NCBI GenBank assembly: GCA_028696075.1
Contig: JAQVHS010000006.1
Location: forward strand, 1-64,000
DNA length: 64,000 nucleotides
DNA from: Candidatus Gastranaerophilales bacterium
Lineage (GTDB): Bacteria; Cyanobacteriota; Vampirovibrionia; Gastranaerophilales; JAILCC01
Direction: 5' to 3'
Shown here: positions 23,193-59,320 of the stretch, piece by piece
How the letters are laid out: every line of letters begins with the position of its first letter
Position numbering within the stretch: the first letter of the stretch is position 1
Program-made: the position numbers and the translations under genes
The notes under the pieces: generated by a model
Told to the model about the DNA's origin: nothing
Databases searched by the model: none
The model's input: only the letters and a program-made list of their open reading frames with translations

Positions 23193-23289
23193 CTTTTATT
23201 CTCCTACTTTTAGTATAATCTATTTTTATATTTTTTCAAGTATTTACAAGTAAATTATTGAAATATTTTTAGCAAACGTCTTGATTTTT

Positions 23290-23333: not shown

Positions 23334-23364
23334 TTTATACATAAGGGTTGTGGGCATATAAAAA

Positions 23365-23388
23365 GGTTAATCATTAGATTGATTAGCC
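23365..23388. promoter_or_regulatory. Second inverted repeat, resolvase upstream region
   Basis: GGTTAATCA and TGATTAGCC form a 9-bp stem (one G-U pair) around TTAGAT, 65 bases before the resolvase start. It is a candidate binding site for the resolvase or a regulator. Confidence 0.35.
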
Positions 23389-23452
23389 ATTTTGACACAT
23401 GGGAAATCAATAATTTAGAAAGAATAATGAAATAAAATGAAAGGAGTTTGCT

Positions 23453-25446: not shown

Positions 25447-25523
25447 AAAAGTTATACCTTTTTAAAAGAAAATCTTTAATAAAACTATAAGATATAAAAC
25501 TTGTTTAATGGTAGAATAAATCT

Positions 25524-26993
25524 ATGAAAAAAAATTTACAAGAAAAAGCTGTTATATATACGAGAGTATCTAGCAGAGAACAGGAACAAGAAGGATATTC
25601 AATACCTGCTCAGCTTAAATTGCTTAATGATTATGCACAAAAAAATAATATTGATGTTATTGAAGAATTTATTGATAATGAAACTGCTAAAAAGGCTGGG
25701 CGGACCAATTTTGTTAGAATGATTGATTTTTTTAAAAAGAATCAAAACGTTAAAACAATTTTGGTTGAAAAAACAGATAGACTATATCGTAATTTCAAAG
25801 ACTATGTTTTATTAGAAAATTACAAACTTGATATTCATCTTGTTAAAGAAGGAACTATTTTAAGTGAGAATTCCCGTTCAAATGACAAATTTATTCACGG
25901 GATTAAAGTTTTAATGGCTAAAAACTATATTGATAATTTATCAGAAGAAGTTAAAAAAGGACAACGACAAAAAGCCGAACAAGGTGAATATCCGGGAAAA
26001 CCTCCTTATGGCTATTACAGATTGAATCATAAAATAATACATGTACAAGATGATGAAGCAAAATTCGTTAAAAGAGCATTTGAACTTTATTCAGAAAAAG
26101 AATTATCATTAACAAGATTAATCGAAGAATTATACAAAGAAGGTTTTATTTACAAACATAATAAAGTCAAAATAGGCAAAAGTAATCTGGATATCATGTT
26201 AAAAAATGTGTTTTATATAGGACAGTTTAAATTTAAAGATAAAATTTATGATGGAGTACATGAACCAATTATTAACCGAGCCCTTTTCTATAAAACGCAA
26301 GAATCATTTAAAAAAGATAATAAACCTGAAAAATCAAATAAAAGAAACTTTGCTTTTGTAGGTATGTTTAAATGTTCAAAATGTGGTTCTGCAATTACAG
26401 CTGAAATTAAAAAAGAAAAATATATCTATTATCATTGCACGGGTTGGCATAAAAAATGTTCTATTAAAAATAAAATGATAAAAGAAGAAATAATATCTTT
26501 ACAACTAGAAAAAGCCATGAAATATATTACGATAAAAAAAGAACATTCGAATTGGCTTAAAAGAGAAATAAAAGATTTTTTTAGTAAAGAACAAGAATAC
26601 CACCGTGATGAATTACTAAGGTTAAGTAAAAAAATAGATTTGCTTAAAAATCGTATTGATAAAATGTATATTGACTATTTAGATGGGATTATTTCAAAAG
26701 AAATATATTTATCAAAATCAAAGGAATGGAATGAAGAAATAGAAAATAATAGACTTATTATCCAAGCTCATGATAAAGCAAATAATAATTTCTTACAAAG
26801 AGGAATAGAAATTATAGAACTGGCTGAAAACCTTTATACAAAATATAAATTACTAAATAACTTTGAAAAGGCTAAATTGGCAAGAATTGTATTGTCGAAC
26901 TTTTATTCGGATGGTGAAAACATAAGCTATACATACAAAAAGCCCTTCGACATATTAGCCGAAGGACTATCTTTTAATAAAACTCTGGGGTGA
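25524..26993 (+). CDS. Large serine recombinase (integrase of the element)
   Basis: 489 residues with the three-part layout of large serine integrases. The resolvase domain has catalytic Ser16 in YTRVSSREQEQEGYS. The recombinase domain follows (KPPYGYYRLNHKI to IINRALF). The zinc ribbon is FKCSKCGSA with HCTGWHKKCS. A coiled coil spans about 360-425. These enzymes join attP and attB with no host factor except, for excision, a directionality partner. No clear Shine-Dalgarno is seen before the ATG. The stop codon lies inside the attachment repeat and overlaps the tRNA-Gln 3' end by 9 bases, so this is the integrase of the island. Confidence 0.92.
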   Translation: MKKNLQEKAVIYTRVSSREQEQEGYSIPAQLKLLNDYAQKNNIDVIEEFIDNETAKKAGRTNFVRMIDFFKKNQNVKTILVEKTDRLYRNFKDYVLLENYKLDIHLVKEGTILSENSRSNDKFIHGIKVLMAKNYIDNLSEEVKKGQRQKAEQGEYPGKPPYGYYRLNHKIIHVQDDEAKFVKRAFELYSEKELSLTRLIEELYKEGFIYKHNKVKIGKSNLDIMLKNVFYIGQFKFKDKIYDGVHEPIINRALFYKTQESFKKDNKPEKSNKRNFAFVGMFKCSKCGSAITAEIKKEKYIYYHCTGWHKKCSIKNKMIKEEIISLQLEKAMKYITIKKEHSNWLKREIKDFFSKEQEYHRDELLRLSKKIDLLKNRIDKMYIDYLDGIISKEIYLSKSKEWNEEIENNRLIIQAHDKANNNFLQRGIEIIELAENLYTKYKLLNNFEKAKLARIVLSNFYSDGENISYTYKKPFDILAEGLSFNKTLG

Positions 26994-27056
26994 AAGGATT
27001 CGAACCTCTGAATGCCTGGACCAAAACCAGGTGCCTTACCACTTGGCGACACCCCA
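26985..27056 (-). tRNA. tRNA-Gln (anticodon TTG)
   Basis: A complete cloverleaf: acceptor TGGGGTG/CACCCCA, D-stem GCC/GGC, anticodon stem CCTGG/CCAGG with loop TTTTGGT (anticodon TTG), and T-arm AGAGG-TTCGAAT-CCTTT. The discriminator base is G, as usual for glutamine tRNAs, and CCA is not encoded. The 3' end is the target of the integrated element. Confidence 0.95.
26986..27002. repeat. Right attachment site (attR) within tRNA-Gln
   Basis: The 17 bases are identical to 9007-9023 and cover the acceptor 3' strand and part of the T-arm. The integrase stop codon (26991-26993) lies within it. Confidence 0.85.
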
Positions 27057-43786: not shown

Positions 43787-43829
43787 AAACTGATTTTCCC
43801 CTGCAATATATAAATTAAAGGAGAAAAAT

Positions 43830-43859
43830 ATGTTAGAATTAAAGAAAAAACCACCTTAG
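43830..43859 (+). CDS. Nine-codon leader ORF ending Pro-Pro-stop
   Basis: ATG with an excellent AAAGGAG seven bases upstream encodes MLELKKKPP and stops with TAG. That stop lies at the ribosome site (AGGA) of the next gene, whose ATG is 8 bases further on. A nascent chain ending Pro-Pro-stop terminates slowly in known bacterial examples, so the position suits translational control of the flagellar operon. Translation is not proven. Confidence 0.45.
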   Translation: MLELKKKPP

Positions 43860-43867
43860 GAACTGAT

Positions 43868-44896
43868 ATGAATTTCAACATTTCAAATTTAGCAACGTTA
43901 GTATTTTCGGTAACAAAAGCAGCGGAGCCGCAAAAACCGTTAGAGTTAAAATCTTTTGACGTGGCAAAAGAAGCGCAGCAAAACCTTCAACAGGCAAATG
44001 TTCAAACAAACCTGCCCTCACCGAATCCTGCGGTAATAATCGTCAAAACACCAACAGTAATGAACAACATGCAGTTAAACATGTTTTTAAGAGATATGTT
44101 AAATCTGCCTAAAGATTGGCTGGAGCTGATGGTTAAGTTTTCGTCGGGACAAAATGATACTGTTTCCGCCATGCTCAAGAATTTGGCGGCAACGAACAAT
44201 CAGGGGTTAAGTTCGGAGGTTTTAAAACTGCTTCAATCAAACGCAAAAGTTGACTTACTTGCGCTTGCCCAGCTTTTGAAAAATAATTCGGGGCTTTTGG
44301 CGGATAAATTACTAAGGCTCGTCAATTCAAGCGGACTTAACCAAAGCAATATTGCCCAAATGAAGGAAATTATGCTGATAGGCGCATCTTTAGCATTAAA
44401 TGCCCAAACAAACCCTGCTGAATTTATAAGAAATATAATACAAATGTACTTGCCATGGCTGCCTTTACTGCCGCCCCAACAAAAGGATTTGGAGGAAATA
44501 ATGGAGCAGGCAGGCAAAAAAGAAAAGGATAATTCTCAAGTATTGTTTTATATTTCTACCGAAAAATCAGGTTATTTTAAGATAGAAATTATTTTGCTTG
44601 ATGAACCGGAAATTTTTATTACGCACATTGTTGAAAAAGCGGATGATGAAGTAAAATATAAAATTTTAGATAACCTTAAAACAATAATTAAAAAACACTC
44701 GCTGCGTGCTAAATTCTTCTTTTCACAAAGAGCGGAAAATTCGGAAGAAAAACCACTGCAAAAACAGCTTTATATAGTTAATTCAACCGATTCGATGATA
44801 GGGTTGTCTTTAATTCAGCTTATAGCAAGAGTTATCTTTGAATTTGACGAAAAATATTCTTTGCAGCAAACAAGGGAAGACAGACTGAAAGGTTAG
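43868..44896 (+). CDS. Unknown protein at head of flagellar operon, FliK-like candidate
   Basis: 342 residues. The N-terminal 230 are helical, Asn/Gln/Leu-rich (SSEVLKLLQSNAKVDLLALA). The last 110 form a beta-rich domain (SGYFKIEIILLDEPEIFITH, then a helix LKTIIKKHSLRAKFFFS). Its position ahead of hook-basal-body genes and this two-part layout (long variable N-terminal region, small C-terminal domain) recall hook-length control protein FliK, but no conserved FliK residues are clear. AGGA precedes the ATG. It is separated from the next gene by a 200-bp repeat-bearing gap. Confidence 0.55.
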   Translation: MNFNISNLATLVFSVTKAAEPQKPLELKSFDVAKEAQQNLQQANVQTNLPSPNPAVIIVKTPTVMNNMQLNMFLRDMLNLPKDWLELMVKFSSGQNDTVSAMLKNLAATNNQGLSSEVLKLLQSNAKVDLLALAQLLKNNSGLLADKLLRLVNSSGLNQSNIAQMKEIMLIGASLALNAQTNPAEFIRNIIQMYLPWLPLLPPQQKDLEEIMEQAGKKEKDNSQVLFYISTEKSGYFKIEIILLDEPEIFITHIVEKADDEVKYKILDNLKTIIKKHSLRAKFFFSQRAENSEEKPLQKQLYIVNSTDSMIGLSLIQLIARVIFEFDEKYSLQQTREDRLKG

Positions 44897-44990
44897 AAGC
44901 TTAGAAGTAGGGAGGCTTAAAAGGTGAAGAAGTGAAAAGCTTAAGGGCTGTCATCTTCTCAGCTTCACGGCTTCCCAACTTCCTCTAAAC
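44895..44990. repeat. Short-repeat cluster related to 42900-43490
   Basis: Runs of gaagcttagaag, ggtgaagaagtgaaaag and cttctcagcttcacggcttcc have the same unit style, here present in both orientations so that they could fold into a long imperfect hairpin. Confidence 0.6.
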
Positions 44991-45095
44991 GGATGATTTT
45001 TATAAAAATTTCTCAAGATTTAACTGTAAATGTCGATAGGTATAAATATTAAAATATGTAAAAATATTCCCTTAGGGAATAAACGGAGATAAGGT

Positions 45096-45794
45096 ATGAA
45101 GTTATTTGGCGGAATATATTTTGACGAGCGGGGTTTAAGCACTTCTATCCGCGGCATGCATATGCAAACCGAGCTGTTGAGTAATATCAACAACAATATA
45201 ACAGGGTTTGACAAAGTTGGGTTCCAAAAAGAAGAAGCCGTGGTTTCCTCTTTTGCGGAATTTATAGGGGTTCATGCCCTATCTACAGTAAAAGACGACA
45301 CCGTAGGCAGAATATATTCAACTAACAACAGGCTGGATTTTGCACTTGCAGACAAAGGTTATTTCCAGTATGAAACCCCCAACGGTATAAAATTAACCCG
45401 TGACGGCAGATTTAAAATGGACAAGGACGGACATCTTTTAACCAACGAAGGATACAAAGTCCTTGCCGCTGACGGCGCTCCTATTAAATTTCAAACCGTA
45501 CCCGAAGATTTAGAACTCGTTAAAGTTTCCAGTGACGGTTTAATTCAGGCCTTTAACAGAACGACAAATAAATTGGAGCGTATAGCTTCCTTTTCCGTAG
45601 TTGATAAAGACGGTCAAATTGCTGACAAACCTAACGTAAGGCAAGGATATATAGAAAGTTCCAACGTAAGAATGGAAGAGCAAATGTTTAATCTTATTCC
45701 GGTAAGAAGAAATTTTGAGGCCAACAGACAACTGTTTATCACACAGAACACCCTTCTCAACCGTACTTTGCAAGAATTGGGCAAAACATCGTAA
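45096..45794 (+). CDS. Flagellar basal-body rod/hook protein, FlgF/FlgG type
   Basis: 232 residues. The N-terminal rod-protein pattern (GLSTSIRGMHMQTELLSNIN, with NNITGFDK) and the C-terminal helix (NLIPVRRNFEANRQLFITQN) are typical of FlgF and FlgG, which build the rod. The centre (KDGHLLTNEGYKVLAADGAP) matches the FlgG-type core. The length fits FlgF or a short FlgG. A second paralogue follows after 18 bases, so the exact name cannot be set by sequence alone. Confidence 0.85.
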   Translation: MKLFGGIYFDERGLSTSIRGMHMQTELLSNINNNITGFDKVGFQKEEAVVSSFAEFIGVHALSTVKDDTVGRIYSTNNRLDFALADKGYFQYETPNGIKLTRDGRFKMDKDGHLLTNEGYKVLAADGAPIKFQTVPEDLELVKVSSDGLIQAFNRTTNKLERIASFSVVDKDGQIADKPNVRQGYIESSNVRMEEQMFNLIPVRRNFEANRQLFITQNTLLNRTLQELGKTS

Positions 45795-45812
45795 TTAAAG
45801 TGAGGTAAAACT

Positions 45813-46526
45813 ATGAAAAACCTGCAAGGCATAATATCAAGGTCAGTAAATAACGCTTCAATGCAGCTTGAGCGCTTAGGTACAGTGGCAAACACATCGT
45901 CAAATTACCTTACCGACGGCTACAAGAGCGTAAGATTTGAAAATTTTTTACAGGAAGACGGCAGAATTAACGGTGTAGAAAGAGTAGACTACCGCCAGGG
46001 CAGTATCTCTTCAACAGGACGTGAACTTGATATGGCGATTAACGGTACGGGATTTATTCCTGTTACCACACCTAACGGACAAATAGCTTATACAAGAAAT
46101 TGTTCTTTTAAAACTAATGAAGAAGGTCTGTTAGTTATGGCAGACGGTTCCGTGGTAGGAGAAGGGATTAAAATACCGGCTGCAACTACACAAGTTTTTA
46201 TTAAACCCGACGGCAGAGTATTAGCCGCTGATGAAAATAACTTGCAAGGCAACGAAGTAGGCAAAATTCAACTTGTTAAATTCAACAATTATGAAGGCTT
46301 ACAACTCATCGACAACAACAAAGTTGTTGCTACAAAAGAATCAGGCGAGCCTGTTTTGATAACGGAACACAAGCAATTTACACAAGGCTGCGTTGAGCGC
46401 TCAAACGTAAATATCAGAGATTCCATTAACGATATTTTGAGATTAAATGCCAGTTTGGTATCAAGCACAAGAATTATTAAATTCACTGATGAAATATACC
46501 AAAAAGCAATTAACCTGACTCAATAG
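45813..46526 (+). CDS. Second FlgF/FlgG-type flagellar rod protein
   Basis: 237 residues. The rod-protein opening (NNASMQLERLGTVANTSSNY), the middle GTGFIPVTTPNGQIAYTRNC, and the C-terminal helix (INDILRLNASLVSSTRIIKF) define the family. It follows the first paralogue by 18 bases and precedes flgB by 13 bases. One of the two is probably the FlgG distal rod and the other FlgF. GTGAGG is near the start. Confidence 0.85.
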   Translation: MKNLQGIISRSVNNASMQLERLGTVANTSSNYLTDGYKSVRFENFLQEDGRINGVERVDYRQGSISSTGRELDMAINGTGFIPVTTPNGQIAYTRNCSFKTNEEGLLVMADGSVVGEGIKIPAATTQVFIKPDGRVLAADENNLQGNEVGKIQLVKFNNYEGLQLIDNNKVVATKESGEPVLITEHKQFTQGCVERSNVNIRDSINDILRLNASLVSSTRIIKFTDEIYQKAINLTQ

Positions 46527-46539
46527 GAGGCGATAAAAA

Positions 46540-46887
46540 ATGAATTTTGAAGTACTACATCCGCTGGACAAATCCCAACTCGTTCTTGATGCCGTTGCAA
46601 AAAAACAACAGCTAATCGGCGCTAACATTGCTAATGTTAATACACCGGGGTATGTCAGACGTGATGTCAGTTTTAATCAGATTTTATCAACTGCAAACAG
46701 TCCGTTAGAAACAAAGTTAAGCGAAGCAATAGGCCCCAACCCTTTCTTTGTTCAGGAAGAAGGTCAGGTTGATGTCAAACAGGAACTAATAGATATGCAA
46801 AGAAATATGCTTTACTACACGGTAGCAACACGGCGTGTAAGCAGCGTAATAACACAATTAAGGTCAGTAACACAGGTAGGTAAATAA
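46540..46887 (+). CDS. flgB: Flagellar basal-body rod protein FlgB
   Basis: 115 residues. The order after the FlgF/G genes and before flgC fits FlgB. The conserved rod segment is present (QQLIGANIANVNTPGYVRRD), with the C-terminal MQRNMLYYTVATRRVSSVIT helix. FlgB forms the proximal rod. GGAGG precedes the ATG. Confidence 0.9.
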   Translation: MNFEVLHPLDKSQLVLDAVAKKQQLIGANIANVNTPGYVRRDVSFNQILSTANSPLETKLSEAIGPNPFFVQEEGQVDVKQELIDMQRNMLYYTVATRRVSSVITQLRSVTQVGK

Positions 46888-46889
46888 TT

Positions 46890-47333
46890 ATGGGATTAAT
46901 GGATGCTTTTAACATAGGTGCGCAAGGTTTAAGCGCTCACGCTCACAGGCTTGATATTCATGCGAAAAACATTGCCAATATCGATACGCCGAATTATGTA
47001 AGAAAAATTCCCGTACTGATTGCGCAGGATGATATTTCTTTTTCGGGTCTTATGAACTATATGAAAGACAGCGTATTCAGAAGCGGCACGGTTCCGTTTA
47101 CTGGCGGCGGGGTAGTGTTTAACGGTGTGGTTGAAGATACAACCCCCGGAGATATTATCTACAAACCCGGACATCCTGATGCTGATGCCAACGGATATAT
47201 AAGAACCTCCAACGTTAATCCTCTTGTGGATATGGCTGATGCTCAAATGACTTCAAGAGCTTACGAAGCGAGTCTGGCGGTCGTCAATATCACAAAAGCA
47301 ATGGCACAGCGTGCAGTAGAGATAGGAAAGTAA
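46890..47333 (+). CDS. flgC: Flagellar basal-body rod protein FlgC
   Basis: 147 residues. It starts 2 bases after flgB and has the FlgC pattern: AQGLSAHAHRLDIHAKNIAN with IDTPNY, the DDTTPGDIIYKPGHPDADANGY-type segment (here EDTTPGDIIYKPGHPDADA), and TSNVNPLVDMADAQMTSRAY. It is part of the proximal rod. Confidence 0.92.
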   Translation: MGLMDAFNIGAQGLSAHAHRLDIHAKNIANIDTPNYVRKIPVLIAQDDISFSGLMNYMKDSVFRSGTVPFTGGGVVFNGVVEDTTPGDIIYKPGHPDADANGYIRTSNVNPLVDMADAQMTSRAYEASLAVVNITKAMAQRAVEIGK

Positions 47334-47361
47334 AGAATTAGTTTAAAAGGGTAAGGTTGAA

Positions 47362-47943
47362 ATGTTTAGTCCTAAAATTCAAAGTTTAATAAATTCCAGC
47401 TCAGAAATGTCGGCGATGAAACGGGTTGTTGAACTTGAAACCATGGTTGAGCAAAAAACAAAAACCGTTGATACTCAAACAACAAAACCCTCAAAATTTT
47501 CAGACGTACTGCAAATGGTTCCGCCCGTAGAATTCAAATATCAAATTCAGGAACCTCAAAAAATAACCCGTTCCGATATTGCCCAAATGGTACAAAAAGC
47601 AGCGTCAAGCGCAGGAATAGACCCAAAACTTATAATGTCTGTAATAAAACAAGAATCAGGTTTTAACCCGAATGCAATTTCAAAAGCAGGCGCGCAGGGC
47701 TTGATGCAGCTAATGCCCGCTACCGCTAAGTCTTTAGGCGTTACAAATGCATTTAACCCTCAGGAAAACATTGAAGGCGGGGTTAAGTATCTGAAAGGAC
47801 TTTTGGATAGATTTAACGGCAACAAAATTTTAGCCCTTGCCGCCTACAATGCAGGACCTAATGCCGTTACAAAATACAACGGCATTCCGCCCTATGCGGA
47901 AACGCAAAATTACGTTAAAAGTATTTTAAAAAATTATTTATAA
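47362..47943 (+). CDS. Lytic transglycosylase (SLT domain) in flagellar operon
   Basis: 193 residues. The C-terminal SLT domain is complete: catalytic Glu in KQESGFNPNA, then ISKAGAQGLMQLMPATAKSL, GVKYLKGLLDRFNG, ALAAYNAGPNAV and YVKSILKNY. The N-terminal 75 residues lack a signal peptide and look like an export or docking tail. Placed between flgC and fliE, it likely does the peptidoglycan cutting that FlgJ does in proteobacteria, letting the rod pass the wall. It may be exported by the flagellar secretion apparatus. Confidence 0.9.
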   Translation: MFSPKIQSLINSSSEMSAMKRVVELETMVEQKTKTVDTQTTKPSKFSDVLQMVPPVEFKYQIQEPQKITRSDIAQMVQKAASSAGIDPKLIMSVIKQESGFNPNAISKAGAQGLMQLMPATAKSLGVTNAFNPQENIEGGVKYLKGLLDRFNGNKILALAAYNAGPNAVTKYNGIPPYAETQNYVKSILKNYL

Positions 47944-47955
47944 AGGAGGCAGCTG

Positions 47956-48285
47956 ATGGATAAAATGTTCCCAAAAATCAACTTAATATCTTCAATAAAC
48001 GACTCTAAGCTGAATGTCAACCAAGAGCCTGTTCGTTTTGATGAAATAAATTCCGACGATAAAATTGTAAGTTTTTCAGACACAATGGTAAATATGACCA
48101 AAAGCCTTAATAACGTTGCAAATTCACCCGACACTGCCATGCAGGATATGTTGACAGGCAACGGCGCGGATATTCATGATGTTATGATGGCTATTTCAAA
48201 AGCCGAAATGAGCGTAACTGTTGCTACACAAATTACGACAAAAGTCGTCCAAGCGTATGAAAAGATTATGGCAATTCAGGTGTAG
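47956..48285 (+). CDS. fliE: Flagellar hook-basal body protein FliE
   Basis: 109 residues. The C-terminal half matches FliE: SPDTAMQDMLTGNGADIHDV, then MMAISKAEMSVTVATQITTK and VVQAYEKIMAIQV. FliE links the MS ring to the rod. GGAGG precedes the ATG, 12 bases after the transglycosylase gene. Confidence 0.9.
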   Translation: MDKMFPKINLISSINDSKLNVNQEPVRFDEINSDDKIVSFSDTMVNMTKSLNNVANSPDTAMQDMLTGNGADIHDVMMAISKAEMSVTVATQITTKVVQAYEKIMAIQV

Positions 48286-48338
48286 AATGTATAATATAAA
48301 ATTAGTAGTAATGTAACTACAAAGGAAGTATAAAGAAA

Positions 48339-49973
48339 ATGGATTTTCAAAAATTACTGCAAAACAAAAATCTTATGATAGCTCTGGTAGTTACTGTTGC
48401 GGTTATTTTGGTTGCCGGTTTTTTCTTTTCGCTGACATCAGGGGGTAAAGGTTCCGATAAAGTAAATATTGACCCTAAAGATAACGAAAAACTCGGAAAA
48501 CCGACAGAACTTTTGACTTCCGACAACACAGGCAAAATTCTTGAAATAGAAGCGCTGCTCGCTAAACACAGAATTGAAACCGAAAGAGATTCTTCAGGCG
48601 GTTCAAAAGTAAAATTATTCCTGAAAAAAGATTGCACAAGAAAACAACGGGATGAAGCGCTGCTTTTAGTAGTTCAAAGCGGTCTTGCCGATGCTAATAT
48701 CGGACTTGAAGTTTTTGACAAAGGCGATTTTACCTCAACAAAAGACGATAAGAGAATTCGTCTTGCCCGTGCTATTAACGGCGAACTTTCCCGTTTAATC
48801 AGAAAAATCAAACCCGTAGAAAACGCTTCCGTATTTATTTCCATTCCGGAGCCTACAATTTTTACAAGTTTACAAAAACCTACCACCGCAACAGTGCAGC
48901 TGGTTTTGCCTGTAGGCGATAAACTTTCAAAAGATAAAATAAGAGCTGTAACAAACCTTCTTTTAGGCAGTATTTCAGGGCTTGAACTCGACAATATTTC
49001 CATTACTGATACAAACGGCAATGTATATTCAAGCATAGCAGGGGCGGACGATGACACCTTAGCAAAAATAGAAGAAAATGATGAATACATGAAAGCAAAA
49101 GTTCAAACCCAGCTTGATAAATTACTTGGCAAAGGAAACTACGTAGTAACCGTAAGCACTTATTTAAGACAAGCGCCCATAGAGCGCAACAGTATAATTT
49201 ATGACCCAAACAGAAACGTTGTTGTAAGCCAGCAAAAATTCAGCGAAAATCTTGGCGACAAAAATTCAGATAAAGGACAATTAACAGGCGCAACCAGCCT
49301 TTATCTTCCCGGCGGGCTGCCTCAGGCGGCTTCTTCCAATCAAAACAGAAATTATTCAAGAACAGCCGAAGAAATGCAGTACGGAGCAACTAAAACCCAG
49401 GTGGCAGAATATTTAAAACCCGGAATGATAGAAGATATCTCAATAGCCGTAACCATTGAAAATAACGCTATTCCCGAAACTATCACTCCCGATGAACTAA
49501 AAGAATTAATAGCAAGCGCTGCCAGTCCGAAAGTGAATGCGGAAAATGTCGAGATAGTTTTTGCAGACAGCGTACGCCCAACCCTTGCCGGAGATAAAGC
49601 AGTTAACCTGCCCGCACCCGAAGGCAGCGGCAACCCTTGGTGGACTATTGCGGTATTATTATTTGGCGGTTTAATCGTAGGGTTAATAACTCTTTCTAAA
49701 AAAATCAGCGCCGCCAAAAATGTTCAGGAGCGCCAAATACAAGAGTTAAAAGAATTAAATGCGCTTCAAGACAACCAGCTTCAAGCCGTAAATCAAAGAG
49801 CCCAAATTCTTTTAGCACAACAAGAACAATTGCAACAATCATTAAATAGCGTAAGGCAGCCTGTACAAGTAGAAGTACCCCGGGTAGAAACCCTTGTTCA
49901 GGATATTCACGAAACTGCCGACGATGAAGAACTTGCAATTCAATTAAAAAGCTGGATAGAACAAGTTGATTAA
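48339..49973 (+). CDS. fliF: Flagellar MS-ring protein FliF
   Basis: 544 residues. An N-terminal transmembrane helix (about 14-32) precedes the YscJ/FliF domain (ALLAKHRIETERDSSGGSKV; ARAINGELSRLIRKIKPVEN; ASVFISIPEPTIF). The FliF_C domain follows, then a second helix (WWTIAVLLFGGLIVGLITLS) and a short cytoplasmic tail (DDEELAIQLKSWIEQ) that binds FliG. It follows fliE and precedes fliG by 2 bases. Confidence 0.93.
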   Translation: MDFQKLLQNKNLMIALVVTVAVILVAGFFFSLTSGGKGSDKVNIDPKDNEKLGKPTELLTSDNTGKILEIEALLAKHRIETERDSSGGSKVKLFLKKDCTRKQRDEALLLVVQSGLADANIGLEVFDKGDFTSTKDDKRIRLARAINGELSRLIRKIKPVENASVFISIPEPTIFTSLQKPTTATVQLVLPVGDKLSKDKIRAVTNLLLGSISGLELDNISITDTNGNVYSSIAGADDDTLAKIEENDEYMKAKVQTQLDKLLGKGNYVVTVSTYLRQAPIERNSIIYDPNRNVVVSQQKFSENLGDKNSDKGQLTGATSLYLPGGLPQAASSNQNRNYSRTAEEMQYGATKTQVAEYLKPGMIEDISIAVTIENNAIPETITPDELKELIASAASPKVNAENVEIVFADSVRPTLAGDKAVNLPAPEGSGNPWWTIAVLLFGGLIVGLITLSKKISAAKNVQERQIQELKELNALQDNQLQAVNQRAQILLAQQEQLQQSLNSVRQPVQVEVPRVETLVQDIHETADDEELAIQLKSWIEQVD

Positions 49974-49975
49974 TT

Positions 49976-50932
49976 ATGTTATCAGAAGCAAACACACCAC
50001 AAGCCATAGAATCTTTTGCACAAAATCTTGCTACGCAGGCTAAAGACGCCTTTCCGCAAGATTTACCGCAAGAAGTACAGCAGTTCATATCAAATACCAT
50101 TTATGAATTTGTCAAAATGGCGGCAGAAGCGCTCAGCGGCGACACGAATACAAACTATAGCGATGAGCAGGCTGTTTTTATATGCCAGTCTATCGGCGAA
50201 TGGATGTTTCATAAAGGTATTGACAACTACAGGAACTCTATAGCCTCCGAAGATTGGGCAAATGTTCTTCAGCAGATTGCATCTGTTGTATTTGAAGTAG
50301 CAAAAGAAATTACGACGGGTATTGATACACAGGAACTTGTCGGCAAAATAGAACAGTATGTTCAGCAAACATACAAAAATATTCTGGAACAGCTGGCTTT
50401 AGCCGGAAAACTTCAAAAAAGCGTAGAAGAAGCCTCAAGTCAGTCTAATCTCAACGAATACATAGAACAAATAAATCATGACAGGGTTATGTCTCCGCAG
50501 GAAGAAGAACGTGAATTAAGGTTTATGACCATGGCAATGTATTTTAAATCACTGCCCCCGGACAAAGTGGAAAAAATGGTTACCGCGCTGAGCGCTGATG
50601 ATAAAAAACACATTTTGACATATATGACTATGGACAATCTCGAACAAATGGTAGACCCTGTTTTATACAGCCAATATCTGGAAAAATTCCACAATTCCAT
50701 ACCAAATGCCGAAAACAAAAAGAAGAAAAAAATTACATTTGCTAATTTAAAAAGTCTTTTACAAGAAACAACCCCTCAAAAAATAGCCCAAATAACCGCT
50801 TATGAAAGAGAAAATGTTAAGAATTTCTTAATACGCCTACAAAATGGTAGAATAAATCCTGATGAGGAAGATGTATTTTCACCTCAGGTATTAGAACTTA
50901 TAACCAAACATTTAATCCAAAAAGTGCAGTAG
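49976..50932 (+). CDS. fliG: Flagellar motor switch-like protein in the FliG position
   Basis: 318 residues between fliF and fliH, the constant place of FliG. The C-terminal half carries helical ARM-like sequence (QEEERELRFMTMAMYFKSLP, HILTYMTMDNLEQMVDPVLY), and the length is close to FliG. However, I do not see the familiar EFDDLV-type torque motif of FliG, so this is either a divergent FliG or a lineage-specific partner occupying its place. No clear Shine-Dalgarno; coupled to fliF by a 2-base gap. Confidence 0.6.
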   Translation: MLSEANTPQAIESFAQNLATQAKDAFPQDLPQEVQQFISNTIYEFVKMAAEALSGDTNTNYSDEQAVFICQSIGEWMFHKGIDNYRNSIASEDWANVLQQIASVVFEVAKEITTGIDTQELVGKIEQYVQQTYKNILEQLALAGKLQKSVEEASSQSNLNEYIEQINHDRVMSPQEEERELRFMTMAMYFKSLPPDKVEKMVTALSADDKKHILTYMTMDNLEQMVDPVLYSQYLEKFHNSIPNAENKKKKKITFANLKSLLQETTPQKIAQITAYERENVKNFLIRLQNGRINPDEEDVFSPQVLELITKHLIQKVQ

Positions 50933-50934
50933 TA

Positions 50935-51612
50935 ATGATTATTAAGAAAAAAAGAAAAAGCAACGATGACGACAATAAGCCTAAAAGCTCTGCCGCTGCC
51001 GAACTGACAGAATCTCAAAACAACATTGTATTTGAAACATTAAGCGATATATCAGACAGGCAGGAGCGCAGAAGGGGTGACAGGAGAAGAGGGTACCGCC
51101 GTATCGAAGACAGGAGCCTTGTTTCACGTGCGCAGGAAGAGGCTAATTTAATAAAAGAAAAAGCAAAAAAAGAAGGTATTCAAAAAGGCATTATTCTTGC
51201 CCAAAATGAAATAACCGAACTGAAAAAAGCTGTGCAGTCAATTATGGACGTAAAAAGAAAAGCATATGAAACTTATCAAAATGATATTGCTTTTATAGCG
51301 CTTGACGTTGCCCAAAAAATTCTGCAAAAAGAAGTTCAAGAAAATCCCGCAACCATCATTAATATTGTAAATAATGTAATTAAAGAAATATCAAAAGACG
51401 AAAATCGTATCACTATTATCGTAAATCCTATAGACAAAGACATTTTAATCAATGAATTGAATAAACAGGAGTCAAGAGTTAAAATGTGTGTAGAAACCGA
51501 CACAAAAATAGAACAGGGAAGCTGCAGGGTAATCACCCAAAGCGGACAAATTGACGCTGCTTTTTCAACACAGTTGCAAATAATTAAAAAAGCGTTTGAG
51601 GAAGGGTTATAA
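50935..51612 (+). CDS. fliH: Flagellar export-associated protein FliH
   Basis: 225 residues. A charged N-terminus has an Arg-rich stretch (RQERRRGDRRRGYRRIEDRS). A long coiled coil follows (EANLIKEKAKKEGIQKGIIL), then the FliH/HrpE-type C-terminal domain (LDVAQKILQKEVQENPATII, then IIVNPIDKDIL). FliH regulates the export ATPase FliI. No fliI gene is in this run, so FliI must lie elsewhere. It starts 2 bases after fliG. Confidence 0.85.
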   Translation: MIIKKKRKSNDDDNKPKSSAAAELTESQNNIVFETLSDISDRQERRRGDRRRGYRRIEDRSLVSRAQEEANLIKEKAKKEGIQKGIILAQNEITELKKAVQSIMDVKRKAYETYQNDIAFIALDVAQKILQKEVQENPATIINIVNNVIKEISKDENRITIIVNPIDKDILINELNKQESRVKMCVETDTKIEQGSCRVITQSGQIDAAFSTQLQIIKKAFEEGL

Positions 51613-51615
51613 CAT

Positions 51616-53724
51616 ATGGCAAAAGGAGGTGCATTATCAACATTGCCGATGAGTGAGTTTGTACTTGCTGTATTTGTGCTGTCGTTGATTTTGATTTTGC
51701 TGGTTGAACTGCCGACTTTTATGGTGGATATTTGTATTTCTTTAAATATTACCTTAGGGGTAGTTTTGCTGATGATATCCCTTTTTGTACAAAAACCGCT
51801 TGAACTTGCATCTTTCCCGTCTATTATCCTTATCGGAACAATGTTTAGGCTGGTTTTAGGTATAGCCTCCACAAGGTTAATTTTAGCCAGAGGTGAAGCA
51901 GGAGAAGCTATCCATGCGTTCGGTACTTTTGTAACAGCCGGCAATATGGTTGTAGGCGCGGTTATATTTATTATCATTACAATCGTACAGTTTTTGGTAA
52001 TTACAAAAGGCGCGGAAAGAATAGCAGAAGTTGCGGCAAGGTTTGCGCTGGACGCAATGCCCGGGAAACAGATGACTATTGATGCAGATTTTAACGCAGG
52101 GTTAATTTCACCGGAAGAAGCCGTCACAAAACGTGAAGACCTGCAAAGAGAATCCTCTCTTTTCGGTTCTATGGACGGCGCTATGAAGTTCGTAAAAGGT
52201 GATACCATAGCAGGTATTATTATTGTTGTAATCAACATTATAGGCGGTTTAGCCGTAGGGATGGGGATGAACGGGATGGAACTGGCTGATGCAGTACAAA
52301 AATATACCGTTCTTACCATCGGCGACGGTCTGTCTACGCAGCTGCCTTCATTATTAATGGCAATATCAAGCGGCATCGTAATGACCCGTTCTACCGCTGC
52401 AAGCTCCAGTTTAGGCAGAGACCTTGTTATTCAAATCTTAAATAAACCTTTCAGCTTGTTTTATGCTGCGGGATTTTTGGTATTAATTTCCGTAACAAGC
52501 CACTGGACAGGGCTGCCGGGCTGGTTTTTCTTTATATTTGCAATAATTTTAGCCGCAGGCGGTTTATCTATGCTTGTATCTCAAGACGTTCAGGCTCAAA
52601 TCGGACAGCTTGAAAATGTGAAACAAAACATGCAAAACCTTGTTAACCCTAACAAAATGTATGAAAGACTAGGAGTTGATGTGCTTGCCCTACAGGTCGG
52701 CACGGGTTTAATAGCAATAGCAGACCCTGAGCAGGAAGGACAACTTCTGCCGAAAATCGCGGCTTTAAGACAAAGAGTAACCGACGAATTAGGATTTATC
52801 ATTCCTAATATCCGTATTATGGACTCCACTGCCGTGGGTGAATATGAATACCTGATTGCAATAAGAGGCAATACAGTTGCAACCGGCGAAGTGTATCCCG
52901 GCAGATTTATGGTTATAGCAGACCAATGGGATGAAACAGGACTGCAGTTACCTCAAAATGTTGTTACATCAACAGACCCCACATACCAAACTCAAGCTTA
53001 CTGGCTGCTTCCGCAGGATATCCCGCAAGATGTACAGCTTACATACGTTGACCCTACAGATGCGATTGTTACCCATTTGCAGGATTGTGTAAGAAAATAC
53101 GTTGATGAAATTATGACCAAAACAGACGTACTAAAATTGATGGAACTTGTAAAAGCGCAAGACCCGACTTTGGTTAACGACCTTGTTCCGGCAATTATAT
53201 CAACCAGTGATTTAAGAAAGATTTTTGTAAACCTTATCAAAGAAAATGTTTCTATATTAGACATTGTATATGTGTTTGAAAGACTTTGCGACTATGCAAG
53301 GTTTTCAAAAGAGCCTGATATTTTATCGGAACGTTTAAGAGCCGCTTTAGGGCGTCAAATTTGTTTAAGGCACTCAAACGAACATAGCGTGTTATATGCC
53401 GTAACTTTATCTCAGGAATGGGAAAAAATTCTTGATGACAGCTGCCAAAGAACAGAGCTTGGAACAATGTTCCTGCTAAACCCCATGCAGGTTCAGGAGC
53501 TTATTGAAACAACCGCTTCAACACTTATAAGAGCACACCAGCATATAGGTTCGCAGCCAGTGTTGCTTTGTTCTCCAAGAATAAGACTGCCGCTGTTCCA
53601 GTTGCTTGAAAGACACATTCCGACGGTTGTTGTTATTTCATACAGCGAGCTTATAACCGATATAAGAGTAGAAGCGGTAGACACTATAGGCGAAGCGGAA
53701 ACAGACTATGATTATTCAATGTAG
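51616..53724 (+). CDS. flhA: Flagellar type III export gate protein FlhA
   Basis: 702 residues, full length. The N-terminal half has about eight membrane helices and the FHIPEP signature region (LASFPSIILIGTMFRLVLGI, then ASTRLILARG), plus the conserved FVKGDTIAGI loop. The cytoplasmic domain follows (VDVLALQVGTGLIAIADPEQ to the end). FlhA is the export gate that receives substrates. AAAGGAGG covers the start. It ends 2 bases before the convergent hemW gene. Confidence 0.96.
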   Translation: MAKGGALSTLPMSEFVLAVFVLSLILILLVELPTFMVDICISLNITLGVVLLMISLFVQKPLELASFPSIILIGTMFRLVLGIASTRLILARGEAGEAIHAFGTFVTAGNMVVGAVIFIIITIVQFLVITKGAERIAEVAARFALDAMPGKQMTIDADFNAGLISPEEAVTKREDLQRESSLFGSMDGAMKFVKGDTIAGIIIVVINIIGGLAVGMGMNGMELADAVQKYTVLTIGDGLSTQLPSLLMAISSGIVMTRSTAASSSLGRDLVIQILNKPFSLFYAAGFLVLISVTSHWTGLPGWFFFIFAIILAAGGLSMLVSQDVQAQIGQLENVKQNMQNLVNPNKMYERLGVDVLALQVGTGLIAIADPEQEGQLLPKIAALRQRVTDELGFIIPNIRIMDSTAVGEYEYLIAIRGNTVATGEVYPGRFMVIADQWDETGLQLPQNVVTSTDPTYQTQAYWLLPQDIPQDVQLTYVDPTDAIVTHLQDCVRKYVDEIMTKTDVLKLMELVKAQDPTLVNDLVPAIISTSDLRKIFVNLIKENVSILDIVYVFERLCDYARFSKEPDILSERLRAALGRQICLRHSNEHSVLYAVTLSQEWEKILDDSCQRTELGTMFLLNPMQVQELIETTASTLIRAHQHIGSQPVLLCSPRIRLPLFQLLERHIPTVVVISYSELITDIRVEAVDTIGEAETDYDYSM

Positions 53725-53726
53725 TT

Positions 53727-54839
53727 TTACAAAAACTCACTTATAACGCTGTTGCTAAGCAAAAATCCTTTTGTTGTTAAAAACACCCTGTCTTTTGCGA
53801 CTTTCATTAAATCAAGTTCGACTAATTTTTCTATTTGTTTTTTGTAGTCCTGCATAAAATCTTTACCGAATTTTTCGTTAAACGCTTTGATATCTATACC
53901 TTTTTTAAGCCTGAAGCCCAAAAAAATACTTTCTTCTAATTCGTCACCTTTGGTTATTTTTCGTTCTGTTATTTTGGTCAAAGGATTGTTAATATACATC
54001 TCCAAATCAATCTCATTGGAATATCTTGTTTTGTTCATATAAGAATGTGCCGCCAACCCGAAACCATAATATTCTTTTGCTTCCCAATAACAGTTATTAT
54101 GCTTCGATTCAAAACCTTTTTTGGCAAAGTTGCTTATTTCATAGTGTTCAAAACCTGCTTGAGTAAGCTCATCAACTATCTTGAGATAAAATTCCTCCTG
54201 TTTATCATCATCCGGTAAATTATCCGGCATATTTGAATAAAAAGCGCAGCCCTCTTCTATTTTTAGCCCGTAAGTCGAAACATGATTAATATCGAGGCTT
54301 TTTATTATATCTAAATCTCTTTGCAAAATTTCCATAGTTTGATTTGGCAGTCCGTACATTAAATCAACGCTTATATTATTAAAGCCGCAATCTTTCAGGG
54401 CTTCTACTGTTTCTGTTGTTTGCTTTGCATTATGTTTTCTGCCCAAATTTTTTAAAATATCGTCGTTAAAAGTTTGAGAGCCGACGCTTATTCTGTTTAT
54501 ACCCAAACGTTTTAACTCTTTAAAATATTTTGCGCTTGAGATTGCCGGGTTTATTTCTGTTGTTATTTCTGCATTTTCTGCTATATTAAACGCTGAATTT
54601 AATGCTGTTATTATATTTTTAAAATTTTCTATTTCAAGTATATTGGGCGTTCCGCCGCCAAAATATACCGTTTTAATAATGTTTTTTTTGTTTGAAAAAT
54701 ATTTTATTTCTTTAATCAAGCTGTTTATGTAATCTTTTTCTTTGTTTTTGTGTCCGTCAAAAGACACAAACGAGCAATAATTGCACTTTTGCAGACAAAA
54801 AGGTATGTGAATATAAATATTTTCTATCATATTGCCCAT
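53727..54839 (-). CDS. hemW: Radical-SAM HemW-type protein
   Basis: 370 residues. The radical-SAM CxxxCxxC is C15-C19-C22 (CLQKCNYC), followed by the FGGGTPN and GSQTFND motifs and the HemN_C-like end. The length and single N-terminal CNYC-type cluster fit HemW, a heme-binding chaperone-like protein, rather than HemN, which has an extra N-terminal stretch. A start 9 bases later (MIENIYIH) is also possible. It shares the 54840-55075 intergenic region with dnaN. Confidence 0.88.
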   Translation of the reverse strand: MGNMIENIYIHIPFCLQKCNYCSFVSFDGHKNKEKDYINSLIKEIKYFSNKKNIIKTVYFGGGTPNILEIENFKNIITALNSAFNIAENAEITTEINPAISSAKYFKELKRLGINRISVGSQTFNDDILKNLGRKHNAKQTTETVEALKDCGFNNISVDLMYGLPNQTMEILQRDLDIIKSLDINHVSTYGLKIEEGCAFYSNMPDNLPDDDKQEEFYLKIVDELTQAGFEHYEISNFAKKGFESKHNNCYWEAKEYYGFGLAAHSYMNKTRYSNEIDLEMYINNPLTKITERKITKGDELEESIFLGFRLKKGIDIKAFNEKFGKDFMQDYKKQIEKLVELDLMKVAKDRVFLTTKGFLLSNSVISEFL

Positions 54840-55075
54840 TGTTTAAAACCTGTAGAAAACCTGTTCAAAACCATGGTGGTTTTTAAAAGTTGTTGAAAAA
54901 TTGTCGGTTGTTTAAAAGTTATTGAAAGTTTTATACTTTTTCATGACAGTTTCTTTACATACAAAAGTCTTTATCAACAACTCTTTTCGAGGTTTTCTAC
55001 AAAAATTTGTTTCTCTACTACTACTATATATTATTTTATTTTATAATAAAATATAATAAAGAAGGAGAGAGTGTT
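54840..55075. other. Probable chromosomal replication origin (oriC) upstream of dnaN
   Basis: AT-rich 236 bp with a cluster of DnaA-box-like nonamers: TGTAGAAAA (54851), TGTTCAAAA (54862), TGTTGAAAA (54891), TTATCAACA (54971) and TTTTCTACA (54993). Read on the proper strand they are one or two bases from TTTTCCACA/TTATCCACA, the cyanobacterial and general DnaA boxes. dnaN-recF to the right and no dnaA match the cyanobacterial arrangement, where oriC sits next to dnaN. A TATAATAAAATATAATAAAG stretch just before dnaN gives promoter or unwinding DNA. Confidence 0.6.
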
Positions 55076-56200
55076 ATGGAATTTATCATTCAAAAAGAAA
55101 GTGTTATAGATTTTTTAAGATTAACTGAACATATATCAGCAATCAGAGGAATACAACCTGTATTATCAAATGTTTTTATTAAAGCTGTTAAAAATGAAAT
55201 AATTTTAAAAAGTACCGACCTTGATTTAGGCACTATAATTTATATTGAAGCAAATGTTGAAAAAGAAGGCGAAATAACCCTTCCTGCAAAAAAATTAAGT
55301 GATTTGATTTCAAGATTTCCGGATAAAGAAATCAAATTCTCTCTTAACTCAACAACAAATGTAACTTCAATAACCTGCGCCAATTCTAAATTCGACCTTT
55401 TAGGTATCAGCGCATCAGAATTTCCTCAAATAGTTGATGAAAAAGAAGTCGAAGAAAATAAAGAAAGAATTACCATAGAAATTGAACCCTTTATTAAATC
55501 AATTAAACTGACTTCTTATTCAACAATAAACTATGAATCAAACAATGTCTTAAGCGGAGTTTTATGCTCTATAAGTGATAAACATTTAGAACTTGTATCG
55601 ACTGACGGCAACAGATTATCAAGGGTTGTGGAAAAAATTGAAAGCGCATTGGATAAAGAATTTTCGACAATTATTCCATCTAAAACACTCAACGAATTTG
55701 TAAGGATGGCGGCTCTTTTTGATGAAAAAACAGTTGATATTATTAAAAAAGACAGCCAGGTTATATTCAAGTTTAAAAAAGCTATTTTGGTTTCCCGTGT
55801 TATAGAAGGTCAATACCCCAAGTATAAACAGCTTATCCCTGAAAATAACCAAAAATTCGCTATAGTATCAAAAGAAGATTTGATAAACGCACTTGAGCGT
55901 ACGGCTTTGATAGCTGAAGGAAGAACCAACATAGTTAAAATGACTTTTGAAAATAATCAGCTTATGCTCGAAGCCGATAATCCGGAAGTCGGTGATTGTG
56001 TTGATTTAATAGATGTGAAGTATGACAGTGAAAAACTAAGAATAGCTTTTAATTACAAATATTTGCTTGAAGCCCTTAAATATTTTGAAACACCGTTGGT
56101 TAAGTTTGAACTTAATACCCCTTTATCGGCTACTTTGGTTAAACCTAATTCATCAGAAAATTATCTGGCGCTTATAATGCCTGTTCAAATAAGAGAATGA
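55076..56200 (+). CDS. dnaN: DNA polymerase III beta sliding clamp
   Basis: 374 residues, full length, with three repeats of the clamp fold (STDLDLGTIIYIEANVEKEG; LSGVLCSISDKHLELVSTDG; SATLVKPNSSENYLALIMPV). The start at 55076 (MEFIIQKESVIDFLRL) has GAAGGAGAGAGTGTT upstream. An ORF extension to 55007 adds 23 residues and lacks a ribosome site. The clamp tethers polymerase III to DNA. Its stop overlaps the recF start in an ATGA. Confidence 0.96.
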   Translation: MEFIIQKESVIDFLRLTEHISAIRGIQPVLSNVFIKAVKNEIILKSTDLDLGTIIYIEANVEKEGEITLPAKKLSDLISRFPDKEIKFSLNSTTNVTSITCANSKFDLLGISASEFPQIVDEKEVEENKERITIEIEPFIKSIKLTSYSTINYESNNVLSGVLCSISDKHLELVSTDGNRLSRVVEKIESALDKEFSTIIPSKTLNEFVRMAALFDEKTVDIIKKDSQVIFKFKKAILVSRVIEGQYPKYKQLIPENNQKFAIVSKEDLINALERTALIAEGRTNIVKMTFENNQLMLEADNPEVGDCVDLIDVKYDSEKLRIAFNYKYLLEALKYFETPLVKFELNTPLSATLVKPNSSENYLALIMPVQIRE

Positions 56201-57285
56201 TTTTAAAAACACTGAAAATTTTAAACTTTAGAAACTATGATGAGCTTCAAATTGATTTTGACAAAAATAAAACCATCATAGTAGGCAGCAACGCCCGGGG
56301 TAAGACTAATATCCTTGAAGGCGTATATTATTTATCCTCATTGTCATCTTTTAGAACAAGCAATGACAAAGAGATGATAAAGTTTGATAAAGATTTTTTC
56401 AGGATAAGAGGAGAGATTTTTAAAAATGATACCGATATTTCGATTGAAGTTTGGTTGAACCCGCCGCGCAAAAAAATTCTGAAAGTTAACGATATCAAAA
56501 AAACAAAATCTAAAGAATTTCAAAACATAATAAACACCGTAAAATTCACAGTAGATGACCTTCTTTTAGTCAGAGGGACGCCAAAGGACAGAAGAAGCTG
56601 GCTTGATAGCGCTATATGTCAGGTTTATGGCGGTTATTACGACAGGTTGTTAAAGTATAACCGTATAAAAGACCAAAAAAACAACCTGCTTAGAAAAATA
56701 AAAGCTTGTGCTGTAAGCAGTTATGAAGATATTTTGAACGTATTTGACGAACAGCTTATAAACAGCGGTTCTAATATAATTTATTTGAGAAAAAAATACA
56801 TAAAAGAAATTGCGCCAAGGGCAAAAGAATTTCACAAAAATATTTCTGAAGGGAAAGAAGAGCTTGATATTTTTTATATTTCATCGATAGAGCCGGAAAG
56901 CGTAGAAGATATAGCGGAAAATTTTAAACAAAAGACCAAAGAGCGCAGACAGGAAGAAATAATAAGGGCAAAAACACTTGTTGGTCCTCATCGTGATGAT
57001 ATCGGATTTTGTATAAATTCGAATAATGCCCTTAGTTTTTCATCGCAAGGTCAGCAAAGAACCATAGTTCTGTCATTAAAGCTTGCCGAACTTAAGATTA
57101 TTGAAGAAAAAATAAACGAAAAACCAATTCTTTTGCTGGATGATGTTTTGGCTGAACTTGATAAAGAGCGTCAAAAATTTCTGCTTGATGCTATTGAAAA
57201 TGATATTCAATCAATAATTACAACAGTTGATGTGAATAACTTTGAGCCTGAATTTTTAGAAGGTGTGAAAGTGATAAATATTTAA
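56197..57285 (+). CDS. recF: Recombination mediator RecF
   Basis: 362 residues. Walker A GSNARGKTN at 30-38, the ABC signature FSSQGQQRTIVLSLKLAELK, and Walker B ILLLDDVLAELDKERQKFLL, which is the RecF form. RecF with RecO and RecR loads RecA at gaps. Coupled to dnaN by a 4-base ATGA overlap. The repeat zone starts shortly after its stop. Confidence 0.95.
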   Translation: MILKTLKILNFRNYDELQIDFDKNKTIIVGSNARGKTNILEGVYYLSSLSSFRTSNDKEMIKFDKDFFRIRGEIFKNDTDISIEVWLNPPRKKILKVNDIKKTKSKEFQNIINTVKFTVDDLLLVRGTPKDRRSWLDSAICQVYGGYYDRLLKYNRIKDQKNNLLRKIKACAVSSYEDILNVFDEQLINSGSNIIYLRKKYIKEIAPRAKEFHKNISEGKEELDIFYISSIEPESVEDIAENFKQKTKERRQEEIIRAKTLVGPHRDDIGFCINSNNALSFSSQGQQRTIVLSLKLAELKIIEEKINEKPILLLDDVLAELDKERQKFLLDAIENDIQSIITTVDVNNFEPEFLEGVKVINI

Positions 57286-57460: not shown

Positions 57461-57640
57461 TCATCGCAGGCTTTTCGCAGCGCATCGGCTTACGCATTTG
57501 CTCCTGTGGGTATTGAGCCTATACTCACTTGCAATCCGCAAGCTCGAGGCTCAATTATCCTACGTCGCCATAGAAAGGTTTCGCCTTACAAAGCCTTGCC
57601 CTTCGGCAAGCCTTTTCAGGCTTCACACACTGCTTACGCA
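57461..57640. repeat. 180-bp direct repeat, first copy
   Basis: Starts tcatcgcaggcttttcgcag and ends cactgcttacgca; the copy at 57750 differs at only a few positions (catttg/caattg, gccat/gccgt, cttcgg/ctttgg). It contains nested inverted repeats such as TGAGCCT...AGGCTCA around CTTGC/GCAAG. Frames through it are artefacts. The interval 57286-57984 contains no credible gene. Confidence 0.92.
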
Positions 57641-57749: not shown

Positions 57750-57929
57750 TCATCGCAGGCTTTTCGCAGCGCATCGGCTTACGCAATTGCTCCTGTGGGT
57801 ATTGAGCCTATACTCACTTGCAATCCGCAAGCTCGAGGCTCAATTATCCTACGTCGCCGTAGAAAGGTTTCGCCTTACAAAGCCCTGCCCTTTGGCAAGC
57901 CTTTTCAGGCTTCACACACTGCTTACGCA
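57750..57929. repeat. 180-bp direct repeat, second copy
   Basis: Matches the first copy over its full 180 bases with few differences, 109 bases downstream of it. Confidence 0.92.
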
Positions 57930-58702: not shown

Positions 58703-59320
58703 TTAAGAAAGGTTAAGCTCTTTTAAGCAGACAGGACAGATTTTTTTTTCGTTAAATTCCTGTATACTCATTACCCTGCCGCACTTTTCGCATACGGGAA
58801 AGCCTTTTGCTTTCATCCATTTTTGGGTCTTTAAATCCTTTATTATAAAATCAAACACTTTTTGTTTTTTTGTTTCGTCAAATGCGGTTTGTTTTTCTAA
58901 AGATTGTTTGATTTTAGCGATTTCTTCTTCATCAAGAACAACCCCGCCCAATTCTTCATCCGTCGGTTTTATGTTGTAAACCTCCTGTAGTTTAGAAGGT
59001 TTGTATTTATTGGAATTAATTTTTGGCGCTTGTGCCGTTGAAAAAACAAGGTTATCTATTTTTATGGCAAATTTAGCCTGAACTTTTTCTATAAGCTGCT
59101 TTTTAAAAAAAGATAATTCCTGAATAACTGCGCTTGAAGAAGCTGTTATTTTCAAGGTGGTTTTGTTATATTTTGTAGAAATATCCTCAACAAACGTCTT
59201 ACCTTTATACCTGTTGCCGGTTATTGCATCCCAGTATTCAACAAGCTGTGCAAAATTACTGTTTTTGTAATTTTGAGAGGTTTTTAGAATATCTTTAATG
59301 CTGAAAATATCTTCTTTCAT
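58703..59320 (-). CDS. dciA: DciA-like (DUF721) helicase-loader protein with zinc ribbon
   Basis: 205 residues. The DUF721/DciA core spans about 1-95 (LKTSQNYKNSNFAQLVEYWD, ITASSSAVIQELSFFKKQLI), the small KH-like domain that loads or stimulates the replicative helicase DnaB where DnaC or DnaI is absent. A charged linker follows, then a C-terminal zinc ribbon (CEKCGRVMSIQEFNEKKICPVC, two CxxC pairs). Location 3 kb from the probable oriC and dnaN-recF supports a replication role. Confidence 0.75.
   Translation of the reverse strand: MKEDIFSIKDILKTSQNYKNSNFAQLVEYWDAITGNRYKGKTFVEDISTKYNKTTLKITASSSAVIQELSFFKKQLIEKVQAKFAIKIDNLVFSTAQAPKINSNKYKPSKLQEVYNIKPTDEELGGVVLDEEEIAKIKQSLEKQTAFDETKKQKVFDFIIKDLKTQKWMKAKGFPVCEKCGRVMSIQEFNEKKICPVCLKELNLS

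Follow-up and report, generated by a model that had tools for sequence, protein, structure and literature searches.

The question raised by this locus is where, and by which signal, replication of the chromosome of a Candidatus Gastranaerophilales bacterium is started. The DnaA protein and the box it binds are regarded as close to universal. The window (the whole stretch of 64,000 nucleotides that was analysed) carries dnaN next to a cluster of DnaA-box-like nonamers. With a probability of about 0.93, the region 54840-55075 is the chromosomal oriC, read through an altered DnaA box that is matched by a replacement of DnaA residue 433. The evidence is computed: it comprises the box cluster, the DnaA-trio repeat and its spacing, the low duplex stability, the recurrence of these elements in relatives, GC skew in relatives and the correlation between DnaA residue 433 and position 6 of the box.

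Organization of the region upstream of dnaN

The 236 bp that separate a hemW-like gene from the start of dnaN (55076) include seven matches to TTWTNWACA, all within the 162 bp of 54840-55001; the left-hand five lie on the minus strand, the right-hand two on the plus strand. The TTWTCNACA form accounts for four of them and the two best are TTTTCTACA. The sequence-only reading had listed five nonamers in 160 bp; the cluster is confirmed, and the count is corrected to seven in 162 bp by the TTWTNWACA search. Its placement of dnaN-recF directly beside the boxes is borne out by profile matches. The features of the region and of its neighbourhood are the following (boxes and nonamers by pattern match):

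53727-54839, minus strand: hemW/hemN-like radical SAM gene, far side of the origin (PF04055, PF06969)
54840-54848, minus strand: DnaA-box-like nonamer TTTTAAACA, weak form
54851-54859, minus strand: putative DnaA box TTTTCTACA
54862-54870, minus strand: DnaA-box-like nonamer TTTTGAACA, weak form
54891-54899, minus strand: DnaA-box-like nonamer TTTTCAACA
54909-54917, minus strand: DnaA-box-like nonamer TTTTAAACA, weak form
54971-54979, plus strand: DnaA-box-like nonamer TTATCAACA
54993-55001, plus strand: putative DnaA box TTTTCTACA, the trio-side box of the unwinding system
55015-55026, plus strand: DnaA-trio repeat CTACTACTACTA, 13 bp past the box at 54993-55001
about 55019-55059, no strand: predicted A+T-rich unwinding element, lowest duplex stability in the window
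55076-56200, plus strand: dnaN, sliding clamp (PF00712, PF02767, PF02768)
56197-57285, plus strand: recF (PF02463; named from position and length, no specific model)
58703-59320, minus strand: DciA, predicted helicase operator of replication initiation (PF05258, 33.6 bits, cut-off 24)

A 180-nt direct repeat (57461-57640 and 57750-57929, 98% identical) is found downstream of recF.

Duplex stability over 40 bp is lowest, for the whole window, in the stretch that starts at 55019 (rank 1 of 63,959 when 40-step stretches are ordered by nearest-neighbour energies), and the trio repeat runs into it. DnaA-trios have the consensus 3'-GAT-5' and a spacer peak of 10-13 bp (PMC8287927, in part). The combination that defines a basal unwinding system, at least three trios no more than 16 bp from a DnaA box, is found here as TTTTCTACA, a 13 bp spacer and CTACTACTACTA. 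Three elements by which a bacterial oriC is recognised occur together: a box cluster, a low-stability stretch and replication genes as neighbours, namely dnaN, recF and, 1.4 kb beyond dnaN-recF, the gene coding DciA. The order of elements is that of the Bacillus subtilis basal unwinding system, in which boxes 6/7 and DnaA-trios likewise combine box, a 13 bp spacer, CTA repeats (3'-GAT-5') and an A+T-rich element (PMC8287927, in part); B. subtilis differs in having a tandem box pair, while here there is one trio-side box with T at position 6.

DnaA binding, unwinding and helicase loading at this origin are inferred by analogy with B. subtilis and related systems. DnaA is predicted to bind the box array, and the dnaN-proximal TTTTCTACA (54993-55001) would seed a DnaA-ATP oligomer that extends over the trio repeat at 55015-55026. 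This oligomer would open the A+T-rich element at about 55019-55059, where the helicase would be loaded, possibly assisted by the DciA encoded close by.

Recurrence in relatives, GC skew and the position of dnaA

The box-spacer-trio arrangement was sought in relatives with an open pattern, in which the box is free at four positions (TTNNNNACA), the spacer spans 6-18 bp and at least three CTA/TTA follow, in the 600 bp upstream of dnaN. It is present in 22 of the 58 genomes whose DnaA has K433 (0.31 expected), in 21 of the 26 genomes in which residue 433 was not extracted (0.29 expected), in 4/10 T433 genomes (0.09 expected) and in 9/29 D433 genomes (0.01 expected), with all matches in these four groups on the dnaN-facing strand. 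It is absent from these 600 bp in the Q433 (0/3), R433 (0/4) and G433 (0/5) genomes, for which 0.00, 0.00 and 0.02 are expected. The strict pattern TTWTCTACA-N9..17-YTAYTAYTA has a single match in the organism's own 1.84-Mb genome, at the origin site, and none in the reversed control. Among 60 relatives 38 genomes have it, with 58 matches in all, whereas the reversed control gives 17 matches in 13 genomes. In 36 of these 38 genomes a match lies no more than about 300 bp upstream of dnaN, as obtained by subtracting the listed coordinates. The match of G054 lies ~1.2 kb upstream of dnaN and that of G034, a genome that also yields one control match, lies 5.5 kb upstream and points away; three further matches are found elsewhere than at dnaN (G005, G024, G059). 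The strict pattern is not found in 22 of the 60 relatives, G014 among them. No TTWTNNACA site is present within 500 bp of dnaN in 6/58 K433 and 12/29 D433 genomes, nor in the 915 bp upstream of dnaN in the Gastranaerophilales contig L002, whose dnaN is 46% identical.

A loss of the dnaN-side origin in genus g21 (G034, G044, G050, G058) was considered and rejected, since two of its genomes carry TTTTCTACA farther upstream: four boxes 850-975 bp from dnaN in G044 and two at 687-719 bp in G058. There are none within 1.5 kb upstream of dnaN in G050. The origin boxes of G044, G058 and G054 lie 0.7-1.4 kb upstream of dnaN, which would fit an insertion of DNA that separated the two. Genomes of family f12 (for example G064, G069, G074, G088 and G092) have in common, by eye, a ATACATGTAA motif lying between their dnaN-upstream boxes, which may be another site bound at the origin. 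In 3/60 genomes (G024:C3, G047:C22, G052:C5) the sliding clamp is encoded a second time, by a divergent gene (25-27% identity).

GC skew, which had been proposed as a check of the origin assignment, was sampled as one stretch per contig position. It gives a clear answer at dnaN in G061 and G014 and a mostly clear one in G030; the own contig (C6, 106.7 kb) gives only -0.006 to the left of the origin and +0.064 to the right, with an island and a flagellar operon lying to the left. G061, a member of the class assembled as one contig of 2,212,179 bases, was sampled in 20 stretches with a total of 400 kb out of 2,212 kb: 10/10 are positive on one side and 10/10 negative on the other. Its skew changes sign between 1,737,000 and 1,738,301, with dnaN at 1,737,812, and the opposite switch, in the 0.62-0.72 Mb interval, is roughly half a chromosome away from dnaN. 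In two genomes of the same order the stretches to the left of dnaN are all negative (7/7 in G014, 8/8 in G030) and those to the right are positive (13/13 and 8/9, respectively). The skew switch at dnaN in relatives thus identifies the dnaN-side site as their origin and, very probably, as the origin here.

Two regions to the left of the origin have features of their own. The low-GC island at about 8800-27000 of the window falls to 25% GC against about 37% and codes for two serine recombinases (23453-24067, 25524-26993); it looks like an integrated element. A flagellar-type cluster on the plus strand (about 43800-53700, including FlhA at 51616-53724) lies immediately left of the origin.

The boxes could instead be merely DnaA-regulated promoter elements of dnaN, with the real origin elsewhere, for instance at dnaA. 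Their position immediately 5' of dnaN would suit such a role and the skew of the own contig leaves the choice undecided, but a trio repeat and an unwinding element are not promoter features. Moreover, the skew of G061 switches at dnaN and not at dnaA, which is found at 1.03 Mb, 0.71 Mb away, and the 265 bp upstream of the own dnaA have one TTWTNWACA and no TTWTCTACA. On these grounds a role limited to the promoter is rejected as very unlikely. That the cluster arose by chance in an A+T-rich intergenic region, in a window where TTWTNWACA is common (80 sites against a shuffle mean of 43), is rejected as next to impossible, as resampling of the intergenic region gives a mean of 0.44 sites and seven or more in 0/5000 cases and as the box-trio pattern recurs in relatives.

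Other density figures agree: the second-densest 162-bp stretch of the window has 3 TTWTNWACA sites against 7 at the origin, and 3 is also the maximum per 162 bp across 40 resampled 64-kb sequences. All density figures for TTWTNWACA are flattering because this nonamer was picked after the boxes were seen; the recurrence in relatives is independent of that choice. Genome-wide, TTWTCNACA has 224+181 matches against 174+180 in the control. The site 54840-55075 is very probably oriC because its box-spacer-trio arrangement occurs once in the genome and lies at dnaN in most relatives that have it, and because the sampled skew switches at dnaN in two relatives and mostly in a third. The earlier proposal of an oriC adjoining dnaN is therefore upheld, on the box cluster, the trio, the low-stability stretch and the recurrence at dnaN.

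The absence of dnaA from the 64-kb window, also remarked from the sequence, is confirmed: the single dnaA that a PF08299 profile search detects in the genome lies on contig C7, near 82.9 kb. The comparison that had been drawn with Synechococcus holds too, as S. elongatus PCC 7942 has its origin at dnaN, marked by a skew switch, and a distant dnaA (PMC7198777, in part). The use of this arrangement in support of the taxonomic placement is weak. Within the class, dnaA lies no more than 4 kb from dnaN in 14/16 genomes of family f8 and 2/2 of f13, against 0/62 in the other families; the same proximity is found in 11/29 genomes of the other classes of the phylum. The dnaA-dnaN split is therefore common in the phylum but is not a taxonomic marker.

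Box position 6 and DnaA residue 433

In the literature the cyanobacterial box is given as TTTTCCACA and the general one as TTWTNCACA, both with C at position 6 (PMC4674748, in part). The strong box here, TTTTCTACA, differs from TTTTCCACA at this position and none of the seven nonamers of 54840-55001 has C6. The description of the boxes as cyanobacterial-type is thus only partly right: an origin on the dnaN side with a distant dnaA is supported, the published cyanobacterial box sequence is not. Position 6 was counted in TTWTNNACA sites of the 500 bp upstream of dnaN (a shorter stretch in G016, 383 bp, and G023, 156 bp) for the 109 genomes in which residue 433 and this stretch are both available (each is available in 135):

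D433, 29 genomes: C 87, T 4, A 3, G 1 (95 sites; reversed control 26)
K433, 58 genomes: T 171, A 79, G 12, C 10 (272 sites; reversed control 132)
R433, 4 genomes: G 6, A 5, T 1 (12 sites; reversed control 5)
Q433, 3 genomes: A 3/3, all in G061 (reversed control 2, so the sites are barely above control)
T433, 10 genomes: A 6, T 5, G 4 (15 sites; reversed control 16, so the sites are not above control)
G433, 5 genomes of family f11: A, C and G one each (3 sites; reversed control 0)

For the TTWTCNACA form upstream of dnaN the separation is complete, with C6 in 80/80 sites of D433 genomes against 0/157 of K433 genomes. Outside the origin, three K433 genomes have T 69, C 19, A 135 and G 39 at position 6 of this form, and T versus C differs between origin and this three-genome background with p = 3.4e-9 (Fisher), the sites not being independent. 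Positions 4-6 of the trio-side box read TCT in 20/23 boxes of K433 genomes and 23/23 of genomes with residue 433 not extracted (43/46 together), and TCC in 10/10 of D433 genomes. The second commonest nonamer of K433 genomes is TTTTGAACA/TTATGAACA (37/272 sites), possibly a weaker class of DnaA site to judge from its sequence.

The own DnaA reads NRKHTTV in domain IV where E. coli reads GGRDHTTV, and has K at the position of D433. This lysine was aligned to D433 of 1j1v through the domain of a relative and an alignment of 135 DnaAs. The column holds D in 47/47 DnaAs of the other classes of the phylum and in 0/88 of the own class, which has K in 64, T in 12, G in 5, R in 4 and Q in 3. It is the sole column of the 61 in domain IV that fully separates the class from the others; residues 399, 434 and 435, which also contact DNA, are largely kept. 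Base-specific contacts are made at positions 399, 423, 432-435 and 438-439, and Proteobacteria and Actinobacteria are described as keeping the 433-434 pair with high conservation (PMC5043019, in part).

A switch in DnaA-box recognition across the class is proposed from these alignments and counts, in which position 6 would have changed from C to T or A in step with a substitution of D433, mostly by lysine, at the start of the recognition helix. Box sites and residue 433 appear to have changed together throughout the class. From this we infer that residue 433, which we take to be the residue contacting base pair 6, reads box position 6.

Neutral marks of descent, laid down on the same branch with no functional link, would be another explanation of the joint change. 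A tree was built from 112 of the 135 DnaAs (frames of at least 380 residues) with the last 95 residues left out, that is, without domain IV. On it residue 433 changes at least nine times, but D versus non-D just once or twice; the main association is therefore close to a single event. Two further observations are in line with shared descent: G114 has R433 with T6 (one site) beside its sister G115 with K433 and T6, and the T433 family f12 has T6 in 3/5 trio-side boxes (TTTCTTACA twice, TTACTGACA, TTACTAACA and TTATTTACA). Against it, 433 is a base-contacting position (PMC5043019 and PMC7561715, both in part) and no other domain IV column sets the two groups wholly apart. Boxes turn over fast, yet position 6 follows the residue in the TTWTCNACA counts, and side branches shift as well: the trio-side box of the R433 family f15 is, by eye, TTATTGACA in 3/3, and Q433 in G061 goes with TTATCAACA in 3/3 sites. 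The explanation by descent is thus rather unlikely, and a functional link between box and residue is preferred.

How far this link amounts to a code is a separate matter. A residue-to-base rule that pairs D433 with C6, K433 with T6, R433 (f15) with G6 and Q433 (G061) with A6, and by which recognition in this class would have been rewired, is tentative and somewhat doubtful. The pairs D-C, K-T, R-G and Q-A are favoured by classical protein-DNA contact rules. A strict one-to-one code for every residue is rejected: the T433 and G433 lineages are irregular, f11 (G433) giving no clear rule from its 3 sites in 5 genomes, and G114 is contrary. The T433 genome G071 seems, by eye, to use TTATCAACC; it and G061 lie on very long branches of the DnaA tree.

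Relation to known systems and significance

S. elongatus differs from the present system in its box, TTTTCCACA (PMC4674748, in part) against TTTTCTACA together with K at the D433 position here. For this species an unwinding-system sequence was predicted and DnaA was purified for unwinding tests (PMC8287927, in part). The closest parallel to a class-wide box change is that of Epsilonproteobacteria (core TTCAC), which is likewise accompanied by changes at the start of the recognition helix (PMC5043019, in part). There, box position 5 and residues 435, 438 and 439 vary and 433-434 are kept, in contrast to position 6 and residue 433 here. A literature search of partial coverage turned up no description of this origin, of its box or of the changed residue, and a search for the box TTTTCTACA returned nothing on DnaA by title and abstract start.

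Origin finders search either for TTATCCACA or for a motif specific to the species (parameters in PMC8287927, in part), and can miss or misplace origins with changes at position 6. The arrangement upstream of dnaN provides a dependable origin landmark for genomes of this group that are available only as contigs. The class represents a natural experiment on how specificity can shift in an essential initiator and its many sites while viability is kept, and the change in box and residue opens direct in vitro tests. If the residue-to-base rule is true, box and initiator would have co-evolved at least three times within one phylum; origins could then be predicted, and initiators made orthogonal, from one residue.
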